Positions 41,287 through 55,120 of a stretch of 64,000 nt of DNA are shown here, one piece after another. The translations under genes were made by a program, and so were the position numbers. The stretch covers positions 2,480,001 through 2,544,000 of the forward strand of contig NZ_CP119787.1 in assembly GCF_029338255.1 (NCBI RefSeq), given 5' to 3'. The DNA comes from Haloarcula halobia (GTDB taxonomy: Archaea > Halobacteriota > Halobacteria > Halobacteriales > Haloarculaceae). The notes below the pieces were generated by a model. The model searched no databases. It saw nothing but the letters and a program-made list of their open reading frames with translations, and was not told the origin of the DNA. How positions within the stretch are numbered: the first letter of the stretch is position 1; each line of letters starts with the position of its first letter.

Positions 41287-43767
41287 ATGGCAATTGACCA
41301 CTCCGAGGACCGAGCGACCGACCAGCCACAGGCCGGACCGGCGGACGAGGCCGCGACCGTCGGCGAGTACACCTGGGACGACCTCCGTCGGGAGGTCCAC
41401 AGCGGCGGCCGGTTCGACCGGAGCGAGTACCTCGGGTTCGAACCGAACAAACTCCCACAGCACCTCGATGACGGGGCGAGCGCCGCCAAGTCACTCACCG
41501 AAGTGTTCGAGTCACACATCGACCCGAGCACGACGCCCGTGAGGAAGGACGTCTACTCGTGGGAGCACTTCAAACAGGAGTATTACTACGAGGACGGGGA
41601 GCGCCCGACGGACGGCGAGGGCAACGTCGTCCCGTTCGACGCGTCCGAGTACCTCGCGTTCGAGCCCGAGCAGACGGAGAACGTCCTCTCGCACGGCGAG
41701 GACCTCGCGGCCGAACTGGACGCCGTCGTCGACCGCAACACCGTCGACGTCAACCCCGACCTCGACGAGGACGCGTTCTTCTCGACACGGGAGGGCTACA
41801 CGACCGTCGTCAACCGCTACGACCTGGAGAAGGCGGTGCCACAGTCCAAGAAGTCCCACTTCAAGGAACTCGAACGCTACTGGGTCAACAAGCCGTTTGC
41901 CTGCGTGGTCATCTTCCACTCCCGGAAGGAAAACGAGAAGAAGTACTACGTCATCGAACCGCACCGCAACCCCATCGAGTCGGACCTCATGTCCTTCCTC
42001 TCGGGCAAGCTCAAGACGGCCATCAAGTACTCCGAGGACGACGTCATCGTCAAGGGGTCGGAGGCCGACCGTGCCGACGTCATCCAGCGCGAGGCCGAGC
42101 AGCTGCTCTCGCGGTACGACCTCTACGACGGGTCCGTCGCGAGTTCCGGCGACGACGGGAGCTTCGTGGGGCAGGTCAAGCGTCTCCTCGGGATGGAGGC
42201 CGAGTCAGAGACGGACGAGGGGCCACTCGAGGGCATCTCCGCGCGGCCGGAACCGGCCATCTTGGAGGACGACCCGAAGACCCTCAACGAGTACCAGGTC
42301 GAGAAGCTGCTGTACATGCTCAAGCGGGACTTCATCGGCTACGCCCGCATCGACGGCATCAAGCACGACATCAACGTCGAGGACATCTCCTGTGACGGGT
42401 ACAACTCGCGTGTGTTCGTCTACCACACCGACTACGAACAGATCATCTCGAACGTCGAACACGGCGAGGGCGAACTCGACGACTTCGTGGTGAAACTCGC
42501 CCAGCGGTCGGGCAAGGGTATCTCGAAGCGCCAGCCCCAGGTCGACGCCACGCTTCCCGACGGGTCACGTGCCCAGCTGACTCTGGGCCGAGAGGTGTCC
42601 GACCACGGGACGAACTACACGATTCGTCAGTTCAAGGACGTCCCCTTCACTCCCATCGACCTCATCAACTGGAACACCTTCTCGCTCGACGAGATGGCGT
42701 TCCTCTGGCTGTGTATCGAGAACAACAAGAGCCTCATCTTCGCCGGGGGTACGGCGTCAGGGAAGACCACCTCGCTGAACGCCGTCTCGCTGTTTATCCC
42801 CTCGAACTCGAAGATCGTCTCTATCGAGGACACCCGCGAAGTCGAGTTGCCCCAGCGTAACTGGGTCGCCTCGGTGACACGGCCCTCGTTCGGCGAGGAC
42901 GACAGAGGCGACGTCGACGAGTTCGACCTGCTGGAGGCCGCGCTCCGGCAGCGGCCCGACTACATCGTCATGGGCGAGATCCGTGGCGAGGAAGGTCGCA
43001 CCCTGTTCCAGGTCATGTCGACCGGGCACACCACCTACACCACCTTCCACGCCGACTCGGTCGGCGAGGTCATCAAGCGCTTCACCACCGAACCGATAAA
43101 CGTCTCGAAGACCCTGTTCACGGCGCTGGACCTGGTCTCCATCCAGACCCAGACGCGGGTCGACGGCAACAAGGTCCGCCGGAACAAGTCCCTGACCGAG
43201 ATCAACGAGTACTCCGCGGAGAACGACGAGATCAACGTCAGGGACGTCTACGAGTGGCGGGCCCAGCGCGACGAGTACGTCCAGATGGGCAACTCCAACA
43301 CCCTGGAGGAGATCAAGTTCGACCGCGGGTGGACCCAGGAGAAACTGGACGAGGAGATATTCAAGCGCAAGGTCGTCCTCGCCTATCTCATCGAACAGGG
43401 GCTCAACACCTACACCCAGGTCGCAGCGACCGTCCAGGCCTTTATCAACGATCCTGACACGATACTGACGCTCATCGCGAACGACCAGTTGAAGAACTCG
43501 CTCGAGGACCTCCGGGAGATGGAGTCGGTCAAGATCGATATCGACCCCGCGAAAGAGGAGATGGTCCCCCGGCCCGAGGCGCCCGCGGAGATGGTCGAGG
43601 AGACCAAGGCCGTCCTCGACGACGCCTCGTCGCTGTTCGACAGCTACCGGAGCCGCGACACCCCCGACATCGTCTCGGCCCTGATGGACGGCGAGATGGA
43701 CCCGGAGTCCGAGACCGAGGACGCCGTCGGGTTCGGCGAGTTCGTCCCGAAGGTCGGGGAGGAGTGA
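41287..43767 (+). CDS. pilB: type IV pilus assembly ATPase, PilB-type (VirB11/GspE superfamily)
   Basis: The 826-aa cytosolic hexameric ATPase drives pilin assembly. The N-terminal 330 residues contain two repeated segments, each with a WDDLRREVHSGGRFDRSEYLGFEP-like pattern (at about 32 and 92). Walker A is GGTASGKTT (487-495, Lys493). The Asp/Walker B region is VMGEIRGEEGR (Glu564). The His box is TGHTTYTTFHADS. An extended C-terminal part (640-826) follows. The gene precedes pilC with 3 nt between stop and ATG, forming a conserved pair. The neighbouring minor pilins show it serves this locus. Confidence 0.93.
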   Translation: MAIDHSEDRATDQPQAGPADEAATVGEYTWDDLRREVHSGGRFDRSEYLGFEPNKLPQHLDDGASAAKSLTEVFESHIDPSTTPVRKDVYSWEHFKQEYYYEDGERPTDGEGNVVPFDASEYLAFEPEQTENVLSHGEDLAAELDAVVDRNTVDVNPDLDEDAFFSTREGYTTVVNRYDLEKAVPQSKKSHFKELERYWVNKPFACVVIFHSRKENEKKYYVIEPHRNPIESDLMSFLSGKLKTAIKYSEDDVIVKGSEADRADVIQREAEQLLSRYDLYDGSVASSGDDGSFVGQVKRLLGMEAESETDEGPLEGISARPEPAILEDDPKTLNEYQVEKLLYMLKRDFIGYARIDGIKHDINVEDISCDGYNSRVFVYHTDYEQIISNVEHGEGELDDFVVKLAQRSGKGISKRQPQVDATLPDGSRAQLTLGREVSDHGTNYTIRQFKDVPFTPIDLINWNTFSLDEMAFLWLCIENNKSLIFAGGTASGKTTSLNAVSLFIPSNSKIVSIEDTREVELPQRNWVASVTRPSFGEDDRGDVDEFDLLEAALRQRPDYIVMGEIRGEEGRTLFQVMSTGHTTYTTFHADSVGEVIKRFTTEPINVSKTLFTALDLVSIQTQTRVDGNKVRRNKSLTEINEYSAENDEINVRDVYEWRAQRDEYVQMGNSNTLEEIKFDRGWTQEKLDEEIFKRKVVLAYLIEQGLNTYTQVAATVQAFINDPDTILTLIANDQLKNSLEDLREMESVKIDIDPAKEEMVPRPEAPAEMVEETKAVLDDASSLFDSYRSRDTPDIVSALMDGEMDPESETEDAVGFGEFVPKVGEE

Positions 43768-43770
43768 CCG

Positions 43771-45813
43771 ATGAGCCTCAAGACGACGGACCGCCAGGAG
43801 CTGGCCAGCGGCGGCGCGCTGGGTGACACCTTCTACCCGGCCTACCAGCGGCTGTTCGACGAGGAGGGCGACTTCGTCCAGGGTGTCGAGGAGAAGCTCG
43901 CCCAGGCCCGGATGGCCGACAACGTCGAGATGTTCCTGGCGCGGGCGCTCGCCGTCGGCGTCATCGCCGGGCTGGCGCTGTGGCTCGTGGGGACGCTACT
44001 GGGCTACCTGGTGGTCAACCTCCTGATTCCGAACCCCTCGGAGTTCACCTTCATCGGTATCCCCGTCTCCGACTCGACGTCGGCGCTCATCGACACGCTG
44101 AAGCTGCCGATTCTGGTCCTCTGTACCGGCCTCGTGTTCGGGTTCATCGGCTTTGCCGTCGGCTTCGGCTCGCTCGTCTCGATTCCGTACTTCCGCGCCG
44201 GGGCCCGGAAACGGGAGATCAACGTCCTCCTCTCGGACTCCATCTCGTTCATGTACGCCCTCTCGGTGGGTGGACTGAACCAGCTCGAGATCCTGCACGC
44301 GATGGGCCAGGCCGACGACACGTACGGCGAGGCCGCAAAGGAGTTCCAGTCTATCGTCCTAGAGACCGAGTACTTCGATACGGACTACCGGACGGCAGTC
44401 AGGAACCAGGCGCTGGAAACGCCCTCGGATCAGCTCTCGCAGTTCCTGACCGACATGCTCTCTATCATCAACTCCGGGGGTGACATGACCTCGTTCCTGG
44501 AAGACCAGAAGGAGAAACACATGCGGACCGCCCGACAGGAACAGGAGAAGATGCTGGAGACGCTGGAGCTGTTCGGCGAGATGTACATGACCCTCTCGCT
44601 GTTCCCGCTGTTGCTCATCATCATCCTCGTCATCATGTCGATGATGGGCAACGCACAGACGATGCTCATCTACGGGACGGTCTACGGCCTGATTCCCCTC
44701 ACCGGCATCGCCTTCCTCGTGCTCGTCTCGACGGTCACCCAGGACTCCGTCGGCGACGGCTACCTGCGGCCCAACAACCGCGAGGAGGACGTCGTCGTCG
44801 ACGAGGGCATCGGCGTGTTCAACCTCGGCCTCGTCGAGCAGTACACCGGGCGCCACGGTATCTTCGACCGCATCAAGAACCGCGAGGGCACCTACGAACT
44901 CACGCAGATTCTGCTCAAACCCCACCTGTTCTTCCGGGACCACCCCATGCTGGTGCTGGGACTGACCGTGCCGACGTCCATCGTCGCGCTGGCAGTCACC
45001 GTCGTGCTCGGCTGGGCGCCGCTGTCGGTCGACGGGATGCTCGCGAACCCCGTGCTCGGCACGTTCGCGTGGGTGTACGTCCCGCTGTACATCAACTTCC
45101 TCCCGCTGGCGGTCTTCTACGAGTGGAACCAGCGCTCGCGGAAGGCCATCGTCGGCAACCTCTCGGAGAACCTCCGGAAGCTGGCCTCCGCCAACGACAC
45201 CGGGATGACCCTGCTGGAGTCGATCAAGGTAGTCTCGGAGACGTCGGCCGGGAAGCTCTCCGACGAGTTCGAGACGATGCACGCGAAGGTCAACTACGGC
45301 ACCAGCCTCAAGAACGCCCTCCGGGAGTTCAACAACAAGTACCACGTGCCACGCCTGGCGCGGACGGTCAAGCTCATCGCGGAGGCCCAGGAGGCCTCCA
45401 GCCAGATTCAGGACGTGCTCTCGACGGCCGCACAGGCCGCCGAGAACCAGGACGACATAGAGCGCGACCGCAAGTCCCGAACCCGCATGCAGACGGTCAT
45501 CATCATCATGACCTACCTGACGCTGTTGGGCGTGATGGCGCTGCTGAAGACGCAGTTCCTCGACGTCATGGCCGGCCTCTCCGCCCAGGCCTCGAACGCC
45601 GGCGGCTCGGGCGCGGTCGGCGGTGGCGGTGGCTTCGGGGGCAACGTCGACACGAACATGCTGTCGATGCTGTTCTTCCACGCGGTGACCCTGCAGGCCA
45701 TCCTGTCGTCGTTCATCGCGGGCTACATCCGCGAGGTCAAGCTCATCGCGGGCGTGAAGTTCGTCGTCATCCTCTCGACTATCGCCCTCGCCGTCTGGAT
45801 ACTGGTCGGGTGA
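43771..45813 (+). CDS. pilC: type IV pilus membrane platform protein, PilC-type
   Basis: The 680-aa protein has two T2SF/GspF domains. The first has GGLNQLEILHAMGQADDTYGE after about residue 165; the second has ASANDTGMTLLESIKVVSETS near 470. Membrane helices flank each domain. A glycine-rich loop (GGSGAVGGGGGFGG) sits between the last two helices, possibly flexible. PilC organises pilin extraction with PilB. Distinct from FlaJ in length and in the doubled domain. Immediately downstream of pilB. Confidence 0.93.
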   Translation: MSLKTTDRQELASGGALGDTFYPAYQRLFDEEGDFVQGVEEKLAQARMADNVEMFLARALAVGVIAGLALWLVGTLLGYLVVNLLIPNPSEFTFIGIPVSDSTSALIDTLKLPILVLCTGLVFGFIGFAVGFGSLVSIPYFRAGARKREINVLLSDSISFMYALSVGGLNQLEILHAMGQADDTYGEAAKEFQSIVLETEYFDTDYRTAVRNQALETPSDQLSQFLTDMLSIINSGGDMTSFLEDQKEKHMRTARQEQEKMLETLELFGEMYMTLSLFPLLLIIILVIMSMMGNAQTMLIYGTVYGLIPLTGIAFLVLVSTVTQDSVGDGYLRPNNREEDVVVDEGIGVFNLGLVEQYTGRHGIFDRIKNREGTYELTQILLKPHLFFRDHPMLVLGLTVPTSIVALAVTVVLGWAPLSVDGMLANPVLGTFAWVYVPLYINFLPLAVFYEWNQRSRKAIVGNLSENLRKLASANDTGMTLLESIKVVSETSAGKLSDEFETMHAKVNYGTSLKNALREFNNKYHVPRLARTVKLIAEAQEASSQIQDVLSTAAQAAENQDDIERDRKSRTRMQTVIIIMTYLTLLGVMALLKTQFLDVMAGLSAQASNAGGSGAVGGGGGFGGNVDTNMLSMLFFHAVTLQAILSSFIAGYIREVKLIAGVKFVVILSTIALAVWILVG

Positions 45814-45918
45814 CCGGCCCGGACCGTTCCCACGACGTCTCGCGGCGTCGGTGAAGCCCCCGGAGCGCGTATCGATATCGAGAGCGCGGCCAGGCCCTCG
45901 CGCTCGGGAGTACGACAG

Positions 45919-46053
45919 ATGACAGACGACGACGGACTCGCCCACCAGATTCGCGAGTCCCTGGGCGACCGACCGGGACTGACCGCTGAAGACGCCGTCG
46001 AGACGTGGCTCGACCGCTGTCTCGCGTTCGCCGAGTCGCTGCCCGAAAAGTGA
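45919..46053 (+). CDS. 44-aa soluble protein after pilC
   Basis: From ATG at 45919 to TGA at 46053 the frame reads MTDDDGLAHQIRESLGD, then LTAEDAVETWLDRCLAF, ending SLPEK. It is an acidic, all-helical protein with good haloarchaeal composition and no membrane segment. Its one cysteine is not part of a motif. It lies 105 nt after pilC. Function unknown. Confidence 0.55.
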   Translation: MTDDDGLAHQIRESLGDRPGLTAEDAVETWLDRCLAFAESLPEK

Positions 46054-46132
46054 GTGGGGCCGACTCCAGGCCGGGTCGGCGGAGCCGGCACGACGTGGCG
46101 GTTTTATTCGACCGGCCGCTCAAACGTCGCCC

Positions 46133-46339
46133 GTGTCCCCCGAGCGAACCTGTCCCGACTGCGCGGAACCGCTCGAGAAGATGGAGCTCCAGGGAACCGA
46201 TGCGCTGGGCTCGCTCGCCATCGTCGCTCCGGCCTCGGACGACGGCTTCCTCAGCAGCCACCGGGCCGACGAGGTGCTGACGCCCGTGCCGTACGTCTGT
46301 CCCGAGTGTCGACGGACGCTCGTCTACGCAGAGGAGTGA
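46133..46339 (+). CDS. small zinc-ribbon protein
   Basis: GTG-started 68-aa protein with two CxxC knuckles: CPDC (residues 7-10) and CPEC (57-60). Between them is a long spacer (SLAIVAPASDDGFLSSHRAD). Four cysteines suit one zinc. Typical of haloarchaeal rubredoxin-like zinc-finger micro-proteins, which often matter for biofilm or swarming phenotypes, though for this one nothing is known. Confidence 0.75.
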   Translation: MSPERTCPDCAEPLEKMELQGTDALGSLAIVAPASDDGFLSSHRADEVLTPVPYVCPECRRTLVYAEE

Positions 46340-46342
46340 ATG

Positions 46343-46394
46343 GACTCGCCGGGATTGAGCGACCGCGAAGCGGTCGCGATGTTCGGCGAGTCCA
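46343..46394. repeat. nested inverted repeat carrying a copy of the tRNA-Ala 3' end
   Basis: TGGACTCGCCG (46343-46353) is the exact inverse of CGGCGAGTCCA (46384-46394). Between them GCGACCGC (46361-46368) and GCGGTCGC (46372-46379) form a second stem with a GAA loop. The outer arm extended (TGGACTCGCCGGGATT) equals 16 nt of the tRNA gene 3' end at 46426-46441 in direct orientation. Confidence 0.9.
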
Positions 46395-46426
46395 CGACTG
46401 AGGGAGCGAAAGCGACCGAAGAAAGT

Positions 46427-46497
46427 GGACTCGCCGGGATTTGAACCCGGGGCCTCTCCCATGCCAAGGGAGTGATCTACCTCTGATCTACGAGCCC
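46427..46497 (-). tRNA. tRNA-Ala with anticodon GGC
   Basis: Read on the minus strand the 71-nt gene folds as a cloverleaf. The acceptor GGGCTCG pairs with CGAGTCC, with the G3-U70 wobble that identifies alanine tRNAs. The D stem is GATC/GATC. The anticodon stem CTCCC/GGGAG encloses TTGGCAT (anticodon GGC). The T arm is CCGGG-TTCAAAT-CCCGG. The CCA is not encoded. A TATA box lies at 46530-46535. Confidence 0.95.
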
Positions 46498-46529
46498 TCT
46501 CGGCATTCACCTGTATCCGGTGGCCTTTC

Positions 46530-46535
46530 TTAAAG
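46530..46535 (-). promoter_or_regulatory. TATA box of the tRNA-Ala gene
   Basis: CTTTAA on the minus strand lies 33-38 nt before the mature 5' end of the tRNA (46497), leaving a short leader to be trimmed by RNase P. Confidence 0.5.
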
Positions 46536-46581
46536 GCATCGAACCACGGGGGAGGTGTGAGACGGTCCCGTACGACACAAC

Positions 46582-46666
46582 TGATAATTGCGGCACAATG
46601 GCTAAGAGCATCCAGTACGAGCATCGATCAGACGCGGTTACCAGGGTCATATCGGGTCAATTATCA
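46582..46666 (+). promoter_or_regulatory. inverted 9-bp repeats before the pilin operon
   Basis: TGATAATTG (46582-46590) and its inverse CAATTATCA (46658-46666) flank the upstream region of the gene at 46666; the second arm abuts the start codon. The same TTATCA/TGATAA hexamers form a palindrome at the divergent promoter of the gene ending at 51827. A shared operator is an inference. Confidence 0.4.
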
Positions 46667-47286
46667 TGGATGTGAAACGGGGCGGAGATCGCGAGGCACG
46701 TAGCCAGCAGGGACGGGCAGCGACAGAGCGCGGGCAGACGACGCTCGATTTCGCCATCGGCATGAGCCTCTTCCTCGCGGTCCTCATCTTCACCTTCCTG
46801 TTCGTTCCAGGTCTGCTGGCACCGTTTACGGCCGGCGGGCAGGATGAGACGGTATCGACGAATCGGGTTGCCGACTACCTGACGAAAGGGGCGCTCGGGA
46901 CGCCGCGGGACCCGTTCGTCCTCGACACGCAATGTACGATTCTCTTCTTCGATAACCGGACGGCGGCGGACAAGTGCGGCGGCGACTGGAGCAGTGACAC
47001 GCCGGTCGAGGAGACGGTGGGTCTCGACCCGGCGCGGCAGAACCTGAACGTCACCATCCGGGGGACGGCACCGAACAGCGGCGACGAGGAGGTCCTGTGC
47101 TGGGACGAGGACGATAACGTGCTCGTCGGCATCTCGCACGGGACGTGTGGCACCAACCCCGGCGACCCCGACGTCCCGTTCACCAGAGGCGACACGCCCC
47201 CGGACACGAACGACGCGACGGTGACCGCCCTCCGCGTCGCCTCGCTGAAAGGGACGGACGTCACCGTCTACGTGGAGATGTGGTAG
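46666..47286 (+). CDS. pilin-like protein 1 (DUF7287-like)
   Basis: The 206-aa protein has a basic N-terminus, then GQTTLDFAIGMSLFLAVLIF, the hydrophobic helix of a class III (type IV pilin) signal with the G-Q processing site. The rest is a secreted beta-rich domain with three cysteines near TCNIL-like positions (TQCTILFF, DKCGGDW, GTCGTNP) and several sequons. It starts the five-gene pilin array; the next gene starts 2 nt after its stop. Confidence 0.8.
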   Translation: MDVKRGGDREARSQQGRAATERGQTTLDFAIGMSLFLAVLIFTFLFVPGLLAPFTAGGQDETVSTNRVADYLTKGALGTPRDPFVLDTQCTILFFDNRTAADKCGGDWSSDTPVEETVGLDPARQNLNVTIRGTAPNSGDEEVLCWDEDDNVLVGISHGTCGTNPGDPDVPFTRGDTPPDTNDATVTALRVASLKGTDVTVYVEMW

Positions 47287-47287
47287 G

Positions 47288-47875
47288 ATGCGGGGCCAGG
47301 CACACACGCTGGAGGCCACCGTCGCGAGCCTGTTGCTGCTCGCGAGTCTCGTCTTCGCGCTCCAGATGACGGCCGTGACGCCGCTGTCTGCGAGTACGTC
47401 CAGCCAGCACATCGAGAATCAGCAGCAGGCCACTGGCAGTGGCGTCCTCGCGGCGGCGGCCGAGGAAGGGGCGCTCAAGCCCGCGGTGCTCTACTGGAAC
47501 AACTCGAGTCAGCGCTACCACGACACCAACGGCAACCTGGGCTACTACACGAACGGCCCGCCGAACAACACCTTCGGCGACATGCTCAACCGATCGTTCG
47601 ACCAGCGGGGCATCGCGTACAACGTCTACTTCACGTTCCAGAACGCCGGCGGGGAGAGCATCACCCAGCGGTACGTCTACAGCGGGGCCCCCAGCGACAA
47701 CGCGGTGTCGGCGTCCCGCACGGTGACGCTCCTCGACGACGACCACCTGTACAACGCAAACGAGACGCGCAACGCGACGGCGCTGACGAACCCGAACATC
47801 ACCTACCCGATACCGGACACGGGCCGGAACGTGTTCAACACGGTCCGCGTGGAGGTGGTCGCGTGGCGCATCTAG
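47288..47875 (+). CDS. pilin-like protein 2 (DUF7288-like)
   Basis: This 195-aa protein begins MRGQAHTLEATVASLLLLAS, a short basic start and hydrophobic pilin helix. The secreted domain follows with NNSSQRYHD, NTFGDMLNRSF and several N-x-S/T sequons. It ends NTVRVEVVAWRI. Its stop overlaps the next start by 13 nt. Confidence 0.8.
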   Translation: MRGQAHTLEATVASLLLLASLVFALQMTAVTPLSASTSSQHIENQQQATGSGVLAAAAEEGALKPAVLYWNNSSQRYHDTNGNLGYYTNGPPNNTFGDMLNRSFDQRGIAYNVYFTFQNAGGESITQRYVYSGAPSDNAVSASRTVTLLDDDHLYNANETRNATALTNPNITYPIPDTGRNVFNTVRVEVVAWRI

Positions 47876-48897
47876 CCCGCGAGGACCGGGGTCAGATAAT
47901 CCTCATCGCCGCGTTCGCGCTGGCGGTGACGTTCGTCGCGCTGGCGCTCATCGTCAACTCCGCTATCTTCACCGAGAACCTCGCCAGTCGAGGCGAGACG
48001 GGCGGGAGCGACGACGCACTCGACGTGCGTGCGATGGTCGAAGCAAGCGTGGGCGAGGCTATCGCCGGCGCGAACATCCACAACACCACGTCGACGACGA
48101 CGCTGGGCGAGGGGGTAAAGGACGGTATCGGGGAGACGACCGACCAGCTGGAACTGCAACACGTCACCAGCAGCGCGCTGGTGGAGGTGTCGCTGGTCTC
48201 GGGGTCGCCGGTGAACGGGTCGCGAATTGCCCAGAACGAGAGCGGGGGACGGACCTTCGAGGACAACGCCATGTCCGGCGACGCCGAGTGGCAAGTCGTC
48301 ACCCGCGTCGAGCCTCACTCGGACCGGTACAACGGGACGCGTGCCTTCAGGATGAACGTCTCGACGCTCCCGGATTCGGGCGACGCGTTCGTCGTCACGG
48401 CCAACGGGACCGATGGGGAGCCGACCTGGGAGATGCGCCTCTACAGCGACTCCGACGGGGACGTCGACGCCGGTGAGGACGTCACCGTCGAGGTCACCAC
48501 GCCGAGCGGGAGCGAGAGCTGCACCCACGAGACCGAGCACCCCTACGTCCACGTCGACGTGACCGGGGGGGCCGTGGCCGGCGAACCGTGTGACGCGCTC
48601 CGGCGAGGGTTCTACGATGGCGGCGATACATCCGTCTTCGACGGCCGGTTCGCCCACGGCGTCGGGGACGAGCGGTACAACATCACCTTCGAGAACGGCG
48701 GCGAGGTGGTCGGGAACTACTCGCTCGTGACCCGGTCGACGGGTGCCAACCCGACCCCGAACCTCAACACGGCCGTGGGCGCCTCGCCCTACGTCACCGA
48801 CGCGGTCTACAACGTGAGCGTCGAGTTCACCTACGAGACCTCGGAGGTCCGCTACGAGACCAGGATTCGGGTCGCCCCGGGTGAGCCAGATGCGTGA
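47863..48897 (+). CDS. pilin-like protein 3 (DUF7261-like)
   Basis: A GTG start at 47863 gives 344 aa. N-terminal REDRGQIILIAAFALAVTFV is a pilin-type hydrophobic helix, followed by a long secreted domain with nine or more N-glycosylation sequons and two cysteines (SCTHETEH, EPCDALR) likely disulfide-linked. It is the largest member of the array. It overlaps the upstream and downstream genes, so all are translated from one mRNA. Confidence 0.8.
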   Translation: MAHLAREDRGQIILIAAFALAVTFVALALIVNSAIFTENLASRGETGGSDDALDVRAMVEASVGEAIAGANIHNTTSTTTLGEGVKDGIGETTDQLELQHVTSSALVEVSLVSGSPVNGSRIAQNESGGRTFEDNAMSGDAEWQVVTRVEPHSDRYNGTRAFRMNVSTLPDSGDAFVVTANGTDGEPTWEMRLYSDSDGDVDAGEDVTVEVTTPSGSESCTHETEHPYVHVDVTGGAVAGEPCDALRRGFYDGGDTSVFDGRFAHGVGDERYNITFENGGEVVGNYSLVTRSTGANPTPNLNTAVGASPYVTDAVYNVSVEFTYETSEVRYETRIRVAPGEPDA

Positions 48898-49336
48898 GGA
48901 CCGTGCCGTCTCGACGGCGCTTGGCTACGTGTTGACCCTCTCTATCGCGTCGCTGCTCGTGACGGGCCTGCTCGTCGCCGGCAGCGGCTTCGTCGAGGAC
49001 CGCCGCGAGCAGGTGGTCCGTGAGGAACTGACCGTCATCGGCCAGCAGGTCGGGGCCGACCTGGCCCGGGCGGACCGGCTCGTCCTCGCGGCGGACAGCA
49101 GCGGTGGGGACCTGACGGTCCAGCTCAACCGGACCTATCCCGACCGCGTGACGGGGAGCCCCTACCGGGTAGCCATCGACCAGTCGAACGAACGGGTCGT
49201 CCTCAGCGCCTCGAACCCGGAGATTACGGTGACGGTCGGCGTCACCCACGAGACGTCGCTCCGGGACTCCTCGGCCGACGGCGGGAACATCCAGCTGGCC
49301 TACGACAGCGGGGACCTGGTGATCCGCGATGTCTGA
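48890..49336 (+). CDS. pilin-like protein 4 (DUF7266-like)
   Basis: From ATG at 48890 (GTG at 48881 possible) the protein has 148 aa. MREDRAVSTALGYVLTLSIAS is a pilin-like N-terminus of the VSxxxG type seen in archaellins and adhesion pilins. A helix (DRREQVVREELTVIGQQVGAD) and a compact beta domain follow. Its stop overlaps the next start by 8 nt. Confidence 0.8.
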   Translation: MREDRAVSTALGYVLTLSIASLLVTGLLVAGSGFVEDRREQVVREELTVIGQQVGADLARADRLVLAADSSGGDLTVQLNRTYPDRVTGSPYRVAIDQSNERVVLSASNPEITVTVGVTHETSLRDSSADGGNIQLAYDSGDLVIRDV

Positions 49337-50075
49337 GCGTGGGGTCAGCGAAGTGCTGAGCTTCACGCTGGTGTTCGCGCTGGTGGTGACCTCGGTCGCC
49401 ATCGTGTCGGTGAGCGGCCTCGGGAGCCTCCAGGACGCGCGCGACGCGGAGCAACTCGAGAACGCAGAGCGCGCCTTCGACGTGCTGGCCGACAACCTCG
49501 CCGATCTCCACCGACAGGGCGCCCCGAGCAGGGCGACCGAGATCAGCCTCGGCCAGGCGCAGCTGGCGACCGAGGACAACGTCACGATGACCGTCAGAGT
49601 CGAAGACAGCGGCGGGACCACGACGGTCGGGACCTGGGAGATTCGGCCGCTGGTCTACAGCGGCAACCAGGAGCGAGAGCTCGTCTACGAGGCCGGCGCC
49701 ATCTTCCGGACCAACCGCGACAGCGGGTTCGTCGTGCGCGACCCGCCGCTGGTGGTCGACGACGACCGGGTACTGCTCCCGGTTATCGGGCTCAACTCCC
49801 CGCAGGTCCAGAGCCTCGGCGGGTCGACGGTGCTGGTCCGGGCCACCCACCGCGAGGCCGACGTCGCGTTCTCACGGACGGACGGGTCCATCGAGTCGCT
49901 CACCGTCGAGGTAGCGTCCCCGCGGGAGGCCCAGTGGGAGCAGTACTTCGAGTCACACGGGTTCACCTGTACCGGCAGCGCGCCGATATCGTGTGTGTAC
50001 GACCCGCCCCCATCGGACAACTTCGAGCGGGTCTACATCGTCTACCACGACATCGGCGTCGTCATCGACAAGTAG
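49329..50075 (+). CDS. pilin-like protein 5 (DUF7289-like)
   Basis: The 248-aa protein starts MSERGVSEVLSFTLVFALV, a classic haloarchaeal prepilin signal (RGVSEV) with following helix ending SVSGLGSLQDARDAEQL. The secreted part has a cysteine pair near FTCTGSAPISCVY and ends HDIGVVIDK. It closes the array and runs convergently into the gene that ends at 50079. Confidence 0.8.
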   Translation: MSERGVSEVLSFTLVFALVVTSVAIVSVSGLGSLQDARDAEQLENAERAFDVLADNLADLHRQGAPSRATEISLGQAQLATEDNVTMTVRVEDSGGTTTVGTWEIRPLVYSGNQERELVYEAGAIFRTNRDSGFVVRDPPLVVDDDRVLLPVIGLNSPQVQSLGGSTVLVRATHREADVAFSRTDGSIESLTVEVASPREAQWEQYFESHGFTCTGSAPISCVYDPPPSDNFERVYIVYHDIGVVIDK

Positions 50076-50078
50076 GGC

Positions 50079-51827
50079 TCACCCGCTCGTGACGTTCAGT
50101 TTGTTCTCCGAGATGTGGAGGTAGGTCAGCCGGACGATGTTAGTCTGGGGCGGGATGGCGCGCTGGCCCAGGAGCGCCTGGTCGTAGTGGACCGTCCCGC
50201 CGTTGTCCAGCTCGACGCTGCCGGCGACGATGCCGCCATAGAGGTGTGCCTTGCCGATGTAGACGTCGCTCGACCCGGTGATGCCTGCGGGCGCGTATAT
50301 GACCCCCTCGTAGCGGATAGTCGAGGAACCCGACCCGCTGATGCGGGTCGTGAAGTCGGACTTGCCGTAGAGCCAGAACTGCGAGGCGTTCTGGTTGTCC
50401 GCCACGTCGACGACGCCCCCGGAGTTGGGAATCGAGAGGTGCGCGCCGGTGGGACTGGTGGCCTCGCCCTGGACGAACACACGCACCTGTCCGTCACCCT
50501 GCACCTCGATGCGCCCGTCGTTCTTGATGTGGACGAAGTCCCGGACCGCGATGGTGACGTCGCCGCTCCCGGTGTCGAGCGTCAGCGTCCGGCCGTCGAG
50601 CGTCAGGCTGTCGAGGTAGTAGACGCCCTCGGTGAGCGTCTGGTCGCCGCTGTCGAGCGTGGTGCTCGTGATGGGGACGCCAGCGTCGCCGTTGTCGTTC
50701 TCGGCGCTCGCGTTGTCGACCTGCTGCTGGACGTAGCCGTCGACCGGCGCGGCGCCGTCGACACCGCCGATCTGGGTGACGCTCCCCTCGACGGTCCCCT
50801 TGATCTTCTTGCTCGAGGTGTACTCGACGCTGCCGTTGACCCACCCGCTCCCCTTGACCTCGACGCGGTCGCCGGAACGAATCGACCCGTTGACCTCGCT
50901 GTTGCCCGTGACGACGACGTCGCCCGCGGTGGTGACGGTGCCGAACGCGCCCCTCGTGTCGGCGTACGCGCCCGTCCCCACCGAGGAGTCGTAGCTGTCG
51001 GTCCGGGCGGGGTCGCCACCGTTGCCCGAGAGGCGGATCTCGCCGCCGGCGGACGTCGCGGCGACGGCGCTGGTCACCTCCCGCGGGCCGGTCGGGACGG
51101 TCAGCGTGGCGGTGACCCGCTGATTCGGGTGGTCGTAGGAGGCCTTCCCGTCGGTCCGCTCCTCGAAGTACCGGCCCCAGGCGCGGTAGTACTCGCTGGT
51201 GACGGTGACGTTGACGACGCCGGTCTCGAGGGGGTTCGTCCGGTCGGCGCTCGCGTCGGGGTAGACCTGGGTCGTCTCGCCGGGGGTCAGCGAGGCCCGG
51301 CCGGACAGCGTCGTGTCGCCGCTGACGGTGATCAGCGGGAGCGTCAGCGTCGCGTCACGGTAGTAGAACTCCGGCGGTGAGACCATCACGGTCCCGTTCC
51401 GGGATTTCTTCCAGACGCCGCCGCCCTGGTAGGCGACCTGGCGGTCCTCGTTCTCGTAGACGACGGCGCCGAGCGGGACGTCCAGCAGCGTCGTCGTCGT
51501 CGTCGGGGACGCCGAGGAGTTCGTGATGGTTATCTCCATCCGACCGGCCGCGTCGTCGACGCGGTACCGGGCACCCTGTACCCGCGAGAGCGACACCTGC
51601 TGGCCGTTCGAAGAGCCCAGTGCGACCATCGCCGCCTGGGAGTCCAGCTGTGTCATCACTTTCTCCGAACGCGAGACGTCCAGTCCCACCTCGGTGTCGG
51701 TCAGCGCCGTCGCGCCCAGCCCCACGACCAGCGTCGACCCGACGATAACCATGCTGAAGACGAGTAACAGTCCGAGCGGCGCGGACTGCGCACGCTGTCG
51801 ACCCTCGCGGCGACGCCAACCAGTCAT
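50079..51827 (-). CDS. large pilin-like protein with bactofilin-like domain, copy A
   Basis: The 582-aa protein opens with arginines and RAQSAPLGLLLVFSMVIVG, a pilin-style signal helix. Residues 60-230 are beta-rich (VAYQGGGVWKKSRNGTVMVSPPEF). Around residues 290-350 is a bactofilin/polymer-like beta-helix ladder (GNSEVNGSIRSGDRVEVKGS). The C-terminal part has another ladder and ends HISENKLNVTSG. It resembles bacterial PilX_N/DUF7305 proteins. Paralogue of the gene at 51982. Convergent to the pilin array; the ATG is downstream of an operator-like palindrome. Confidence 0.8.
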   Translation of the reverse strand: MTGWRRREGRQRAQSAPLGLLLVFSMVIVGSTLVVGLGATALTDTEVGLDVSRSEKVMTQLDSQAAMVALGSSNGQQVSLSRVQGARYRVDDAAGRMEITITNSSASPTTTTTLLDVPLGAVVYENEDRQVAYQGGGVWKKSRNGTVMVSPPEFYYRDATLTLPLITVSGDTTLSGRASLTPGETTQVYPDASADRTNPLETGVVNVTVTSEYYRAWGRYFEERTDGKASYDHPNQRVTATLTVPTGPREVTSAVAATSAGGEIRLSGNGGDPARTDSYDSSVGTGAYADTRGAFGTVTTAGDVVVTGNSEVNGSIRSGDRVEVKGSGWVNGSVEYTSSKKIKGTVEGSVTQIGGVDGAAPVDGYVQQQVDNASAENDNGDAGVPITSTTLDSGDQTLTEGVYYLDSLTLDGRTLTLDTGSGDVTIAVRDFVHIKNDGRIEVQGDGQVRVFVQGEATSPTGAHLSIPNSGGVVDVADNQNASQFWLYGKSDFTTRISGSGSSTIRYEGVIYAPAGITGSSDVYIGKAHLYGGIVAGSVELDNGGTVHYDQALLGQRAIPPQTNIVRLTYLHISENKLNVTSG

Positions 51828-51840
51828 TGCCGCCCCTTTG

Positions 51841-51859
51841 TTATCATGTGTGATAAATC
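51841..51859 (-). promoter_or_regulatory. TTATCA palindrome overlapping the promoter of copy A
   Basis: TTATCA (51841-51846), a TGTG spacer and TGATAA (51851-51856) form an inverted repeat 14-29 nt upstream of the ATG at 51827; the same bases contain the TATA-like TTTATC. The overlap of palindrome and TATA box is the geometry of a repressor site. Confidence 0.5.
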
Positions 51860-51981
51860 AAGTGGCCACCCGACGAATTCGTGCCGTGTGAAAACGCCGG
51901 CCGGGATATATACTCGCCGCTCCGGATATCAGACGTGAGGATTTCCCCTCCCCCGGACGACTCGACACCGGTCCCCGGCGG

Positions 51982-53766
51982 TCAATCCTCGAATCGCACC
52001 GTGTTCTCGGAGACGTGCACGTACGTTATCTTCACGACGTTCGCCTTCCGACTGACGACCTGCGTGTCTCCGAGTGCCTGGTCGTAGTGGATGCGGCCCT
52101 TGGTGTCGATATTCACGTCACCGGAGACGATGCCGCCATAGATGTCCCCGTTTTCGACCCGGGTTCCCCCTGGACCGCCAGCTCCGACAGGTGCCCAGAG
52201 CACGCCGGTGAACTGACCCCCGTCCACCGATGCGTTGAACGTGTCGTTCGCGTAGAAGCGGAGCTGTGGGGCGTCGTCGCCGGGGACGGAGACCGTGCCA
52301 CCGTGGACTCTGAGACCGGCGTCTCGCCATCCCGAGACGCTCACTTTGCCGTCGCTCGGGTTCGCCCCCATCGTCCGGACGTAGACGTTGACGCGATTGT
52401 CCCCCTGGACGTCGATGGTACCGCTCACGTCGACATACTCGTCGACGACGATGGTGATTGCGCCATCGTTCGTGTCGAGTTCTAGCGTCTCGCCACTGCC
52501 GAGGTCGATTCTCTCGAGGTGGTACCGCCCCGCGTTCTCGATCGTGACCGTCGACCGACTCGAGAAGTCGAGCGTGGGGTCCGGCCCGCCCGTTATCGCG
52601 TCGTAGGCGTCGTTCGCGTCGTCGTTGTCGTTGTCGTCTGCCACATCCTGTCCCATCGTGGCGACGAAGTGATTCAGCGGTGACCGCGTGTCGACACCCG
52701 AGATCTGCTCCTCGCTATCGTAGGAGGCGCTCCCGGACGCGGAGAAGCTGTCCGTCCAGTAGATGTCTCCGTTGATGTCGGCGCTGCCGGTGATGTCGAC
52801 GTCGGACCCAGAACGGATGTTCCCGTGGAAGTTTGCGTTGCCCTGATAGTCGACGGAGCCGCCGAACGTGACGTTCCCGTTCGACCCCGTGGCGCCGGAG
52901 GAGTACTGCGAACAGTAGTCGCCTGGCTCCGACGAGTTGTAGCTGTCAGTGTAAAACGGGTTCGATCCGGGCGAGTCCCCACACGGGCGCCCCCCGTTGC
53001 CCTGGACCTGGAGGCTTCCGGAGGAGAGCCCGGCGACCGCAGACGTGAGTTTGGTGGTTCCGATAGGCGTCACCAGGTCGATGGTCACCCGCTGGTTTGG
53101 GGGGTCGTAACTGACTTCGCCGTCGGTCCGCGTCTCGAAGTATTGCCCCCAGGCCCGGTAGTAGTCGCTCGTTATCGTGACGACGATGGTCCCGTTCTGA
53201 ATCGGGTTCGAGACGTCGACCTCGTTCGAGCTGGTCCGTCGAACCGACGCTCTCTCGCTCAGCGAGGTGTCACCCTCGACACTGATAATCGGGAACGTCA
53301 GCGTCGCGTTCCGGTAGTGAAACTCCGGCGGCGAGACCATCACCGACCCGCCGTCCGTCTCTTTCCAGACGCCACCGCCCTGATATGCGACGGTACTGCT
53401 CGCCCCAGTCGTGCGGACCGAACCGAGGTCACGGTCCACGAGCGTGACAGTTCCACTCGGTTTCTCGTGTTCGATAGTGACGTGCCCGGCAGTCTCGTCC
53501 AATACGTACCCGTCGTTCACCCCGCCCGGGATGTGAACAGTCTGTGCGTTCGAACTGCCGAGCGCGACCAGCGCCGTCTCGGAGTCCAGCTGCGTCAGGG
53601 CTTGTTCTGCCCGTTCGTTTGCCAGCTGGTCTTGCGTCGTCGTAATCGCTCCCGACCCCAGCGCGACGACCGCCGTCGCGCCGATAAACATCACTGCGAA
53701 CACCAGCAAGAGGCCCAGGGGCGCGCTCTGTGCCCGGGTTCCCAACGGCGGCTCTCTGGACCCCAT
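51982..53766 (-). CDS. large pilin-like protein with bactofilin-like domain, copy B
   Basis: The 594-aa paralogue of copy A begins MGSREPPLGTRAQSAPLGLL, continuing as a pilin helix VFAVMFIGATAVVALG. The shared pieces are VAYQGGGVWKETDGGSVMVSPPEFHYR, the SSDYYRAWGQYFETRTDGEVSYDPPNQ-type block, the ladder NIRSGSDVDITGSADINGD and the end YGGIVSGDVNIDTKGRIHYD. It also carries a Cys-containing insert (PCGDSPGSN, GDYCSQYSSG) absent from copy A. Both copies face the same way, 155 nt apart. Confidence 0.8.
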   Translation of the reverse strand: MGSREPPLGTRAQSAPLGLLLVFAVMFIGATAVVALGSGAITTTQDQLANERAEQALTQLDSETALVALGSSNAQTVHIPGGVNDGYVLDETAGHVTIEHEKPSGTVTLVDRDLGSVRTTGASSTVAYQGGGVWKETDGGSVMVSPPEFHYRNATLTFPIISVEGDTSLSERASVRRTSSNEVDVSNPIQNGTIVVTITSDYYRAWGQYFETRTDGEVSYDPPNQRVTIDLVTPIGTTKLTSAVAGLSSGSLQVQGNGGRPCGDSPGSNPFYTDSYNSSEPGDYCSQYSSGATGSNGNVTFGGSVDYQGNANFHGNIRSGSDVDITGSADINGDIYWTDSFSASGSASYDSEEQISGVDTRSPLNHFVATMGQDVADDNDNDDANDAYDAITGGPDPTLDFSSRSTVTIENAGRYHLERIDLGSGETLELDTNDGAITIVVDEYVDVSGTIDVQGDNRVNVYVRTMGANPSDGKVSVSGWRDAGLRVHGGTVSVPGDDAPQLRFYANDTFNASVDGGQFTGVLWAPVGAGGPGGTRVENGDIYGGIVSGDVNIDTKGRIHYDQALGDTQVVSRKANVVKITYVHVSENTVRFED

Positions 53767-53790: not shown

Positions 53791-53800
53791 ACTTAATAAG
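53791..53800 (-). promoter_or_regulatory. TATA box of copy B
   Basis: CTTATTAAGT on the minus strand lies 25-34 nt before the ATG at 53766. Its symmetric AT-rich form is distinct from the TTATCA palindrome upstream of copy A. Confidence 0.55.
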
Positions 53801-54655: not shown

Positions 54656-55120
54656 ATGGCACGAATGCACACACGCCGCCGCGGCTCGTCCGACTCGGAC
54701 AAGCCCGTGGCAGACGAACCCCCCGAGTGGAGCGACGTCGACGAGGACGCCATCGAGGACCGCGTCGTCGAACTCGCCGAACAGGGCCACTCGCCCAGCG
54801 AGATCGGCCTGCAGCTGCGCGACGAGGGCGTTCAGGGCACCCCCGTCCCGAACGTCAAACTCGCGACCGGCAAGAAGGTCACCGAGATCCTCGAGGACAA
54901 CGACGCCGACCCCGACCTCCCCGAGGACCTGCGGAACCTCATGGAGCGGGCCGTCCGACTCCGTGAGCACATGGACGAGAACCCCGGCGACCACCAGAAC
55001 AAGCGTGCGCTCCAGAACACGCAGTCGAAGATCCGCCGGCTCGTCGACTACTACCGCGGTGACGAGCTCGACGAAGAGTTCACCTACAGCTACGACGAGG
55101 CCGTCGAACTCCTCGACTGA
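54656..55120 (+). CDS. rps15: small-subunit ribosomal protein uS15
   Basis: At 154 aa it is the archaeal/eukaryotic form with an N-terminal extension (MARMHTRRRGSSDSDKPVAD) before the four-helix S15 core. The C-terminal part has HMDENPGDHQNKRALQNTQS and RLVDYYRGDELDEEF, the conserved rRNA-binding helices. It is first in the cluster rps15 / RecJ-like / pcc1 / rps3ae; its stop overlaps the next ATG by 1 nt. Confidence 0.96.
   Translation: MARMHTRRRGSSDSDKPVADEPPEWSDVDEDAIEDRVVELAEQGHSPSEIGLQLRDEGVQGTPVPNVKLATGKKVTEILEDNDADPDLPEDLRNLMERAVRLREHMDENPGDHQNKRALQNTQSKIRRLVDYYRGDELDEEFTYSYDEAVELLD

Follow-up and report, generated by a model that had tools for sequence, protein, structure and literature searches.

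Gene Pair and Domain Architecture

The window analyzed here, a 64,000-nucleotide stretch of the Haloarcula halobia genome (contig NZ_CP119787.1, positions 2,480,001 to 2,544,000), contains a tandem pair of genes on the minus strand, designated A and B, each encoding a DUF7289 pilin-like domain into which a β-solenoid region (DUF7305) is predicted to be inserted. Both are intact open reading frames (Table 1), and the proteins align over nearly their whole length with 42% identity over 600 columns (E 2e-123), in agreement with an earlier sequence-only reading of the locus in which the N terminus, center, and C terminus were common to both copies. The same reading placed the copies in tandem, as is the case, but 155 nucleotides apart, where the measured spacer is 154 nucleotides. 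It also gave each copy its own promoter; a TATA-like box is indeed found 24–26 nucleotides before each ATG, compatible with separate leaderless transcripts, but the boxes do not prove promoter status. The closest named relative at this locus is Halomicroarcula sp. SYNS111, with 92–93% identity for A and B, and comparison with the nearest relative gave ratios of nonsynonymous to synonymous substitution rates (dN/dS) of 0.25 for A and 0.17 for B, indicating purifying selection and that both genes are maintained.

The DUF7289 profile matched A with 90 bits and B with 69.7 bits, against a cut-off of 27, and the DUF7305 profile gave 147 and 106 bits, respectively, both well above its cut-off. In a set of 62 homologues, all matched DUF7289 (E ≤ 1) and 61 matched DUF7305. 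The N terminus carries a type IV pilin signal, R-A|Q-S-A-P-L-G, predicted to be processed and followed by a long helix in the model described below; Arg12 and Gln14, on either side of Ala13, are near-invariant across the 62 homologues, and the genome contains one prepilin peptidase gene. Mean pairwise identity among the homologues is 44% in the pilin part and 28–31% in the solenoid, as would be expected of a conserved carrier and a more variable effector.

Predicted Structure of the Solenoid

The structure of A was predicted with AlphaFold on the 62-sequence alignment, giving a mean predicted local distance difference test score (pLDDT) of 87, with the solenoid blocks mostly at 83–97. The model runs from the N-terminal helix (residues 16–69) through a β-domain ending near residue 245 and a β-solenoid extending to approximately residue 560, which includes a helix at 363–375, to a last strand at 569–581. 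The pilin helix joined to a long β-ladder that the sequence-only reading had anticipated is therefore seen in the model of A, and the absence of a ladder, which by that reading would have left only a duplicated ordinary surface protein, is not what was found.

When residues 248–550 were compared with known structures, the ice-binding proteins were matched with Z scores of 17–18 over ∼195 residues (FfIBP: Z 17.9, 195 residues, 2.7 Å) and the solenoid of Thermus ComZ (PDB code 6qvi) with a Z score of 16.9 over 251 residues at 3.6 Å, the next unrelated folds having Z scores of ∼8 or below. The predicted solenoid of A, ∼310 residues in length, is thus of the ice-binding-protein (DUF3494) type, a discontinuous β-solenoid with a helix alongside. 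In a library of viral structures, the top match of A was a giant-virus DUF3494 protein. Sequence support that is independent of the model appears to come from one homologue (L138), the DUF7305 region of which scores 29.2 bits against PF20597, the "Putative Ice-binding-like adhesive domain," above the curated cut-off of 23.8 bits; a second (L122) lies near the cut-off at 20.0 bits. A and B themselves have no match to PF20597 or to the ice-binding profile PF11999, and the latter matched nothing genome-wide, as was also the case in control genomes. A sequence search of the PDB with the 62-row profile returned chance matches and a 31-residue match to a Natrinema pilin at E 3.8. Ice binding itself is implausible as a role in a halophile.

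The DUF7289 Carrier and the Insertion Point

The stand-alone DUF7289 protein encoded at 49329–50075 was modeled alone (pLDDT 94) and consists of a helix, strands, a short helix, two strands, and one long last strand of 14 residues (234–247). The same succession of elements makes up the two ends of A, in which the matching last strand, of 13 residues, follows the solenoid. When the true C-terminal 21 residues were added to the N-terminal domain, the score against the DUF7289 hidden Markov model rose by a mean of 2.5 bits, compared with 0.44 for control segments, and the mean rank of the true tail among other segments of the same proteins was 0.07, a result that is supportive, although not decisive, of the C-terminal strand being part of DUF7289. 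Element order and tail test together place the solenoid, by the succession of the strands rather than by their pairing, between the penultimate and last strands of the carrier, where the solenoid of ComZ is also located (PMC6561018).

The Cysteines of B

The Cys-containing insertion that the sequence-only reading attributed to B was confirmed, with Cys262 and Cys285 present in B and absent from A. Among 95 distinct homologues, the ectodomain contains no cysteine in 42, an even number in 52, and an odd number in one, a bias with p ∼1e-14 if the sequences were independent, which related sequences are not. Because 52 of the 53 Cys-containing homologues have an even count, Cys262 and Cys285 probably form a disulfide, one of several such pairs at differing sites of the solenoid. 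That the insertion is a trait of B only was rejected, since other copies also have pairs of cysteines at several positions in the solenoid.

Genomic Context and Age of the Pair

The A-B pair is convergent to the genes for PilB, PilC, and five pilin-like proteins (DUF7287, DUF7288, DUF7261, DUF7266, and DUF7289), and the arrangement of five pilin-like genes followed by a convergent DUF7289-DUF7305 gene is kept at most of the loci examined, in many halobacterial genera. The link to PilB/PilC and pilin genes was found in the window and at dozens of other loci. Within the genus, homologues of A and B lie at the same place in most genomes, DUF7305 genes being present in 28 of 31 other genomes (the remaining three are 58–80% complete) and a tandem pair, counted from coordinates, in 20 of the 31. 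An even sample of the phylum gave matches in 66 of 393 genomes, the strong ones nearly all within the same order and several of those outside it weak. The genome itself contains a third DUF7289-DUF7305 gene beside a second PilB/PilC set (L055:5846-7696; G000:C1:1773929-1774576), the product of which falls in a clade separate from A and B. The surface or pilus location assigned by the sequence-only reading is judged right.

A phylogeny of 96 proteins puts A together with operon-proximal copies from Haloarcula and Halomicrobium, whereas B clusters only with its SYNS111 orthologue and the distal copy of one other member of the genus (L053). A is also closer to A of Halomicrobium (57% identity) than to B (42%). 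A and B thus belong to separate, old lineages and do not stem from a recent duplication; of the sequence-only description "recent but diverged" the divergence holds and the recency, rejected on these grounds, does not. Distal copies require at least four label changes on well supported branches; on this tree, second copies have originated, or been exchanged, at least four times.

Table 1. Features of the A-B pair and the adjoining pilus operon (positions in the window)
Feature	Position	Strand	Remarks
Gene A	50079..51827	minus	582 residues; DUF7289 pilin-like domain with inserted β-solenoid (DUF7305); copy adjoining pilin operon
A TATA-like box, TTTATCA	51851-51857	minus	24 nucleotides upstream of A ATG; consensus only
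A prepilin-type leader	51789..51827	minus	Predicted cleavage R12-A13 / Q14 (QRAQSA)
A long N-terminal helix, residues 16–69	51621..51782	minus	AlphaFold model
A pilin-like β-domain, residues 76–245	51093..51602	minus	With helix, = DUF7289; strand order as in stand-alone DUF7289 model
A inserted β-solenoid, residues 248–560, helix 363–375	50148..51086	minus	Ice-binding-protein/ComZ fold; model and fold comparison
A Bactofilin stretch (Pfam, sub-threshold), residues 296–353	50769..50942	minus	Part of solenoid; absent in some homologues
A C-terminal strand, residues 569–581	50085..50123	minus	Equivalent of DUF7289 last strand
Gene B	51982..53766	minus	594 residues; diverged paralogue of A, identical domain order; outer copy
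B TATA-like box, TTATTAAG	53792-53799	minus	26 nucleotides upstream of B ATG; consensus only
B loop with Cys262 and Cys285	52912..52983	minus	Probable disulfide; Cys pairing statistics
PilB-like assembly ATPase (T2SSE)	41287..43767	plus	
PilC/TadC-like platform protein (T2SSF)	43771..45813	plus	
DUF7287 pilin-like protein	46666..47286	plus	Operon
DUF7288 pilin-like protein	47288..47875	plus	Operon
DUF7261 pilin-like protein	47863..48897	plus	Operon
DUF7266 pilin-like protein	48881..49336	plus	Operon
Stand-alone DUF7289 pilin-like protein	49329..50075	plus	Convergent to A

A tRNA-Ala (GGC) gene lies at 46425–46497 on the minus strand, within the gap between PilC and the pilin operon (45814–46665), and may mark an insertion site. 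On the tRNA-gap side of the operon, beside its DUF7287 end, several Haloarcula genomes have a gene for a 1250–1300-residue DUF7289-CARDB modular pilin, and in these genomes PilB/PilC were not found within the stretch examined. Giant pilin-like proteins of 1250–1600 residues with an N-terminal DUF7289 followed by CARDB are encoded at L039:9801-13610 and L049:9871-14655, with similar ones in L040, L042, L056, and L057; the giants constitute another kind of archaeal modular pilin adjoining the same operon. In two Halopenitus loci (L145 and L150), the DUF7289 and solenoid genes have been inverted together with respect to the other genes of the operon, and in the homologue at L151:9635-11560, DUF7308 replaces DUF7305 after DUF7289 and is perhaps another effector module. 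In related genomes, the neighbor beyond B is frequently the gene for ribosomal protein S15, which lies at 54656–55120 in the window.

Proposed Role and Alternatives

A and B are likely to be minor pilins of modular build in a type IV pilus of haloarchaea, probably tip adhesins. According to this proposal, prepilin peptidase would remove the leader, and the long N-terminal helix of the DUF7289 carrier would allow it to enter the filament assembled by the neighboring PilB and PilC. The effector would be the solenoid spliced between the second-last and last strands of the carrier, held at both ends and projecting as a rigid block. The division into carrier and effector is in keeping with the pattern of conservation and with DUF7289 also heading the CARDB giants of neighboring genomes. 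The bulky module probably fits only the pilus tip, by analogy with Streptococcus sanguinis PilB and with ComZ, for both of which it has been argued that a bulky module would fit nowhere else (PMC8179133, PMC6561018). At the tip, the solenoid would serve in adhesion or as a receptor, and the two diverged copies could provide two alternative tip specificities.

A number of observations weigh against this proposal. The stand-alone DUF7289 model gave a best Z score of 2.3 in the fold search, with no solved pilin listed, and the term pilin consequently rests on the N-terminal signal, traces of Pfam Pilin_N, and gene context. Foldseek with the whole model of A ranked ice-binding proteins first but returned no E value below 0.001, no direct sequence match of A to ComZ or to ice-binding proteins was found, and the fold of B is taken from its 42% identity to A. 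Incorporation of A or B into a pilus is an inference, as are tip position and ligand, and the ladder could instead be displayed along the filament or kept on the membrane.

The last of these points leads to the possibility that A and B are membrane-anchored surface adhesins, whose N-terminal helix remains in the membrane while the solenoid projects from the cell, the pilus machine being a mere neighbor. The position of both genes on the strand opposite to the operon, with TATA-like boxes of their own, would suit such proteins, as would a homologue on the Haloferax mediterranei plasmid pHME505 that lies ∼5 kb from the pilC-type gene; this is nevertheless unlikely given the typical class III leader (R-A|Q-S), a carrier domain that is the same as that of an operon member, and the synteny with pilin operons across genera. 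A DNA receptor, a solenoid pilin catching DNA for uptake or exchange, would share its fold and insertion point with ComZ, but the solenoid is strongly acidic, with 20 Lys/Arg versus 38 Asp/Glu in A and means of 16 versus 45 across the 62 homologues, and the DNA-binding lysines of ComZ could not be mapped onto it. Competence genes were not seen beside the pair, although none were sought, and such a receptor appears improbable. Somewhat more speculative still is the idea that Halobacteria and Thermus independently reached an ice-binding-type solenoid at the same topological position in different carriers and that the archaeal pilin, like ComZ, catches DNA at the tip for gene exchange.

The sequence-only reading had described both proteins as bactofilin-like and proposed a membrane or pilus-surface polymer, in which the β-ladder would join end to end as a filament. 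Weak Pfam Bactofilin (PF04519) matches do occur in 21 of the 62 homologues, and A has a β-helical block at residues 296–353; however, the matches of A (21.3 bits) and B (15.3 bits) fall below the curated cut-off of 27.9 and cover 43–58 residues of a domain of ∼98 positions, and at least six homologues keep the remaining domains without the block. Bactofilin membership was therefore rejected, the ice-binding/ComZ solenoid being the better fit. The solenoid, moreover, contains a helix and loops and is tied to the pilin domain by two linkers instead of having free ends, and no bactofilin appears among the listed structural matches, although that alone is no proof. As the ladder is set inside the pilin domain, the polymerizing module would be the pilin helix, and no indication of self-polymerization of the ladder was found. 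A bactofilin-like polymer is very improbable; the surface or pilus placement is the part of that claim that survives. The genome does have a Bactofilin match above the cut-off, elsewhere (G000:C1:1539154-1539390), possibly a halofilin. The slightest chance is given to an enzyme, with the solenoid as a pectate-lyase-like carbohydrate-active domain: pectate lyases appear in the fold list at Z ∼6, far behind the ice-binding folds, and the few conserved residues of the solenoid are mostly Gly, Tyr, and Ser and are scattered.

Comparison with Known Systems

The arCOG02911 proteins are described as euryarchaeal type IV pilus minor-pilin candidates of 250–550 residues, prone to duplication, FlaFind positive, and with an immunoglobulin (Ig)-like fold (Makarova et al. 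2016, PMC4858521). They very probably correspond to the DUF7289 group and, if so, the earlier Ig-like assignment is corrected; as described, arCOG02911 lacks the solenoid module that A and B carry. The group is already known as DUF7289, whereas the solenoid in archaeal pilins is apparently unreported, the open literature searched having yielded no description of an archaeal pilin with a solenoid. With subscription journals outside its scope, this search also found no mention of DUF7305 and no report linking haloarchaeal pilins to ice-binding folds. With the ice-binding proteins and PF20597 members, A shares the fold of its solenoid, and one homologue passes the PF20597 cut-off, but unlike them A and B do not match those Pfam families. 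With bactofilins and halofilins, the pair shares a short parallel β-helical stretch and sub-threshold Pfam similarity, but differs in domain make-up, in its predicted extracellular location, in having the ladder inserted in a pilin domain, and in the dispensability of the block.

In S. sanguinis PilB, a pilin bears a grafted functional module that it displays, probably at the tip, and the accompanying survey of modular pilins, based on the IPR012902 N-terminal motif, does not mention archaea in its text (PMC8179133). The vWA module of this bacterial protein is appended at the C terminus, whereas the solenoid of the archaeal A and B is inserted. The pairing of the DUF7289 carrier with solenoid or CARDB domains suggests that archaea too use modular pilins, and A and B offer a concrete candidate for the adhesive or receptor end of type IV pili in haloarchaea, for whose minor pilins there have been only guesses as to function.

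The closest parallel is ComZ of Thermus thermophilus, which like A is a solenoid pilin with the solenoid at the same topological place. The carrier of ComZ resembles the pseudopilins of type II secretion systems and has five strands, whereas DUF7289 is larger and has no match in the PDB; ComZ binds DNA, whereas the solenoid of A and B is acidic, and no sequence similarity was found between them. Unlike ComZ, A and B are archaeal and occur as tandem copies. Because the DUF7289 carrier resembles no solved fold above a Z score of 2.3, the likeness in design is probably convergent, and the pair would then provide a case of one design reached independently in ComZ and in a haloarchaeal pilin.

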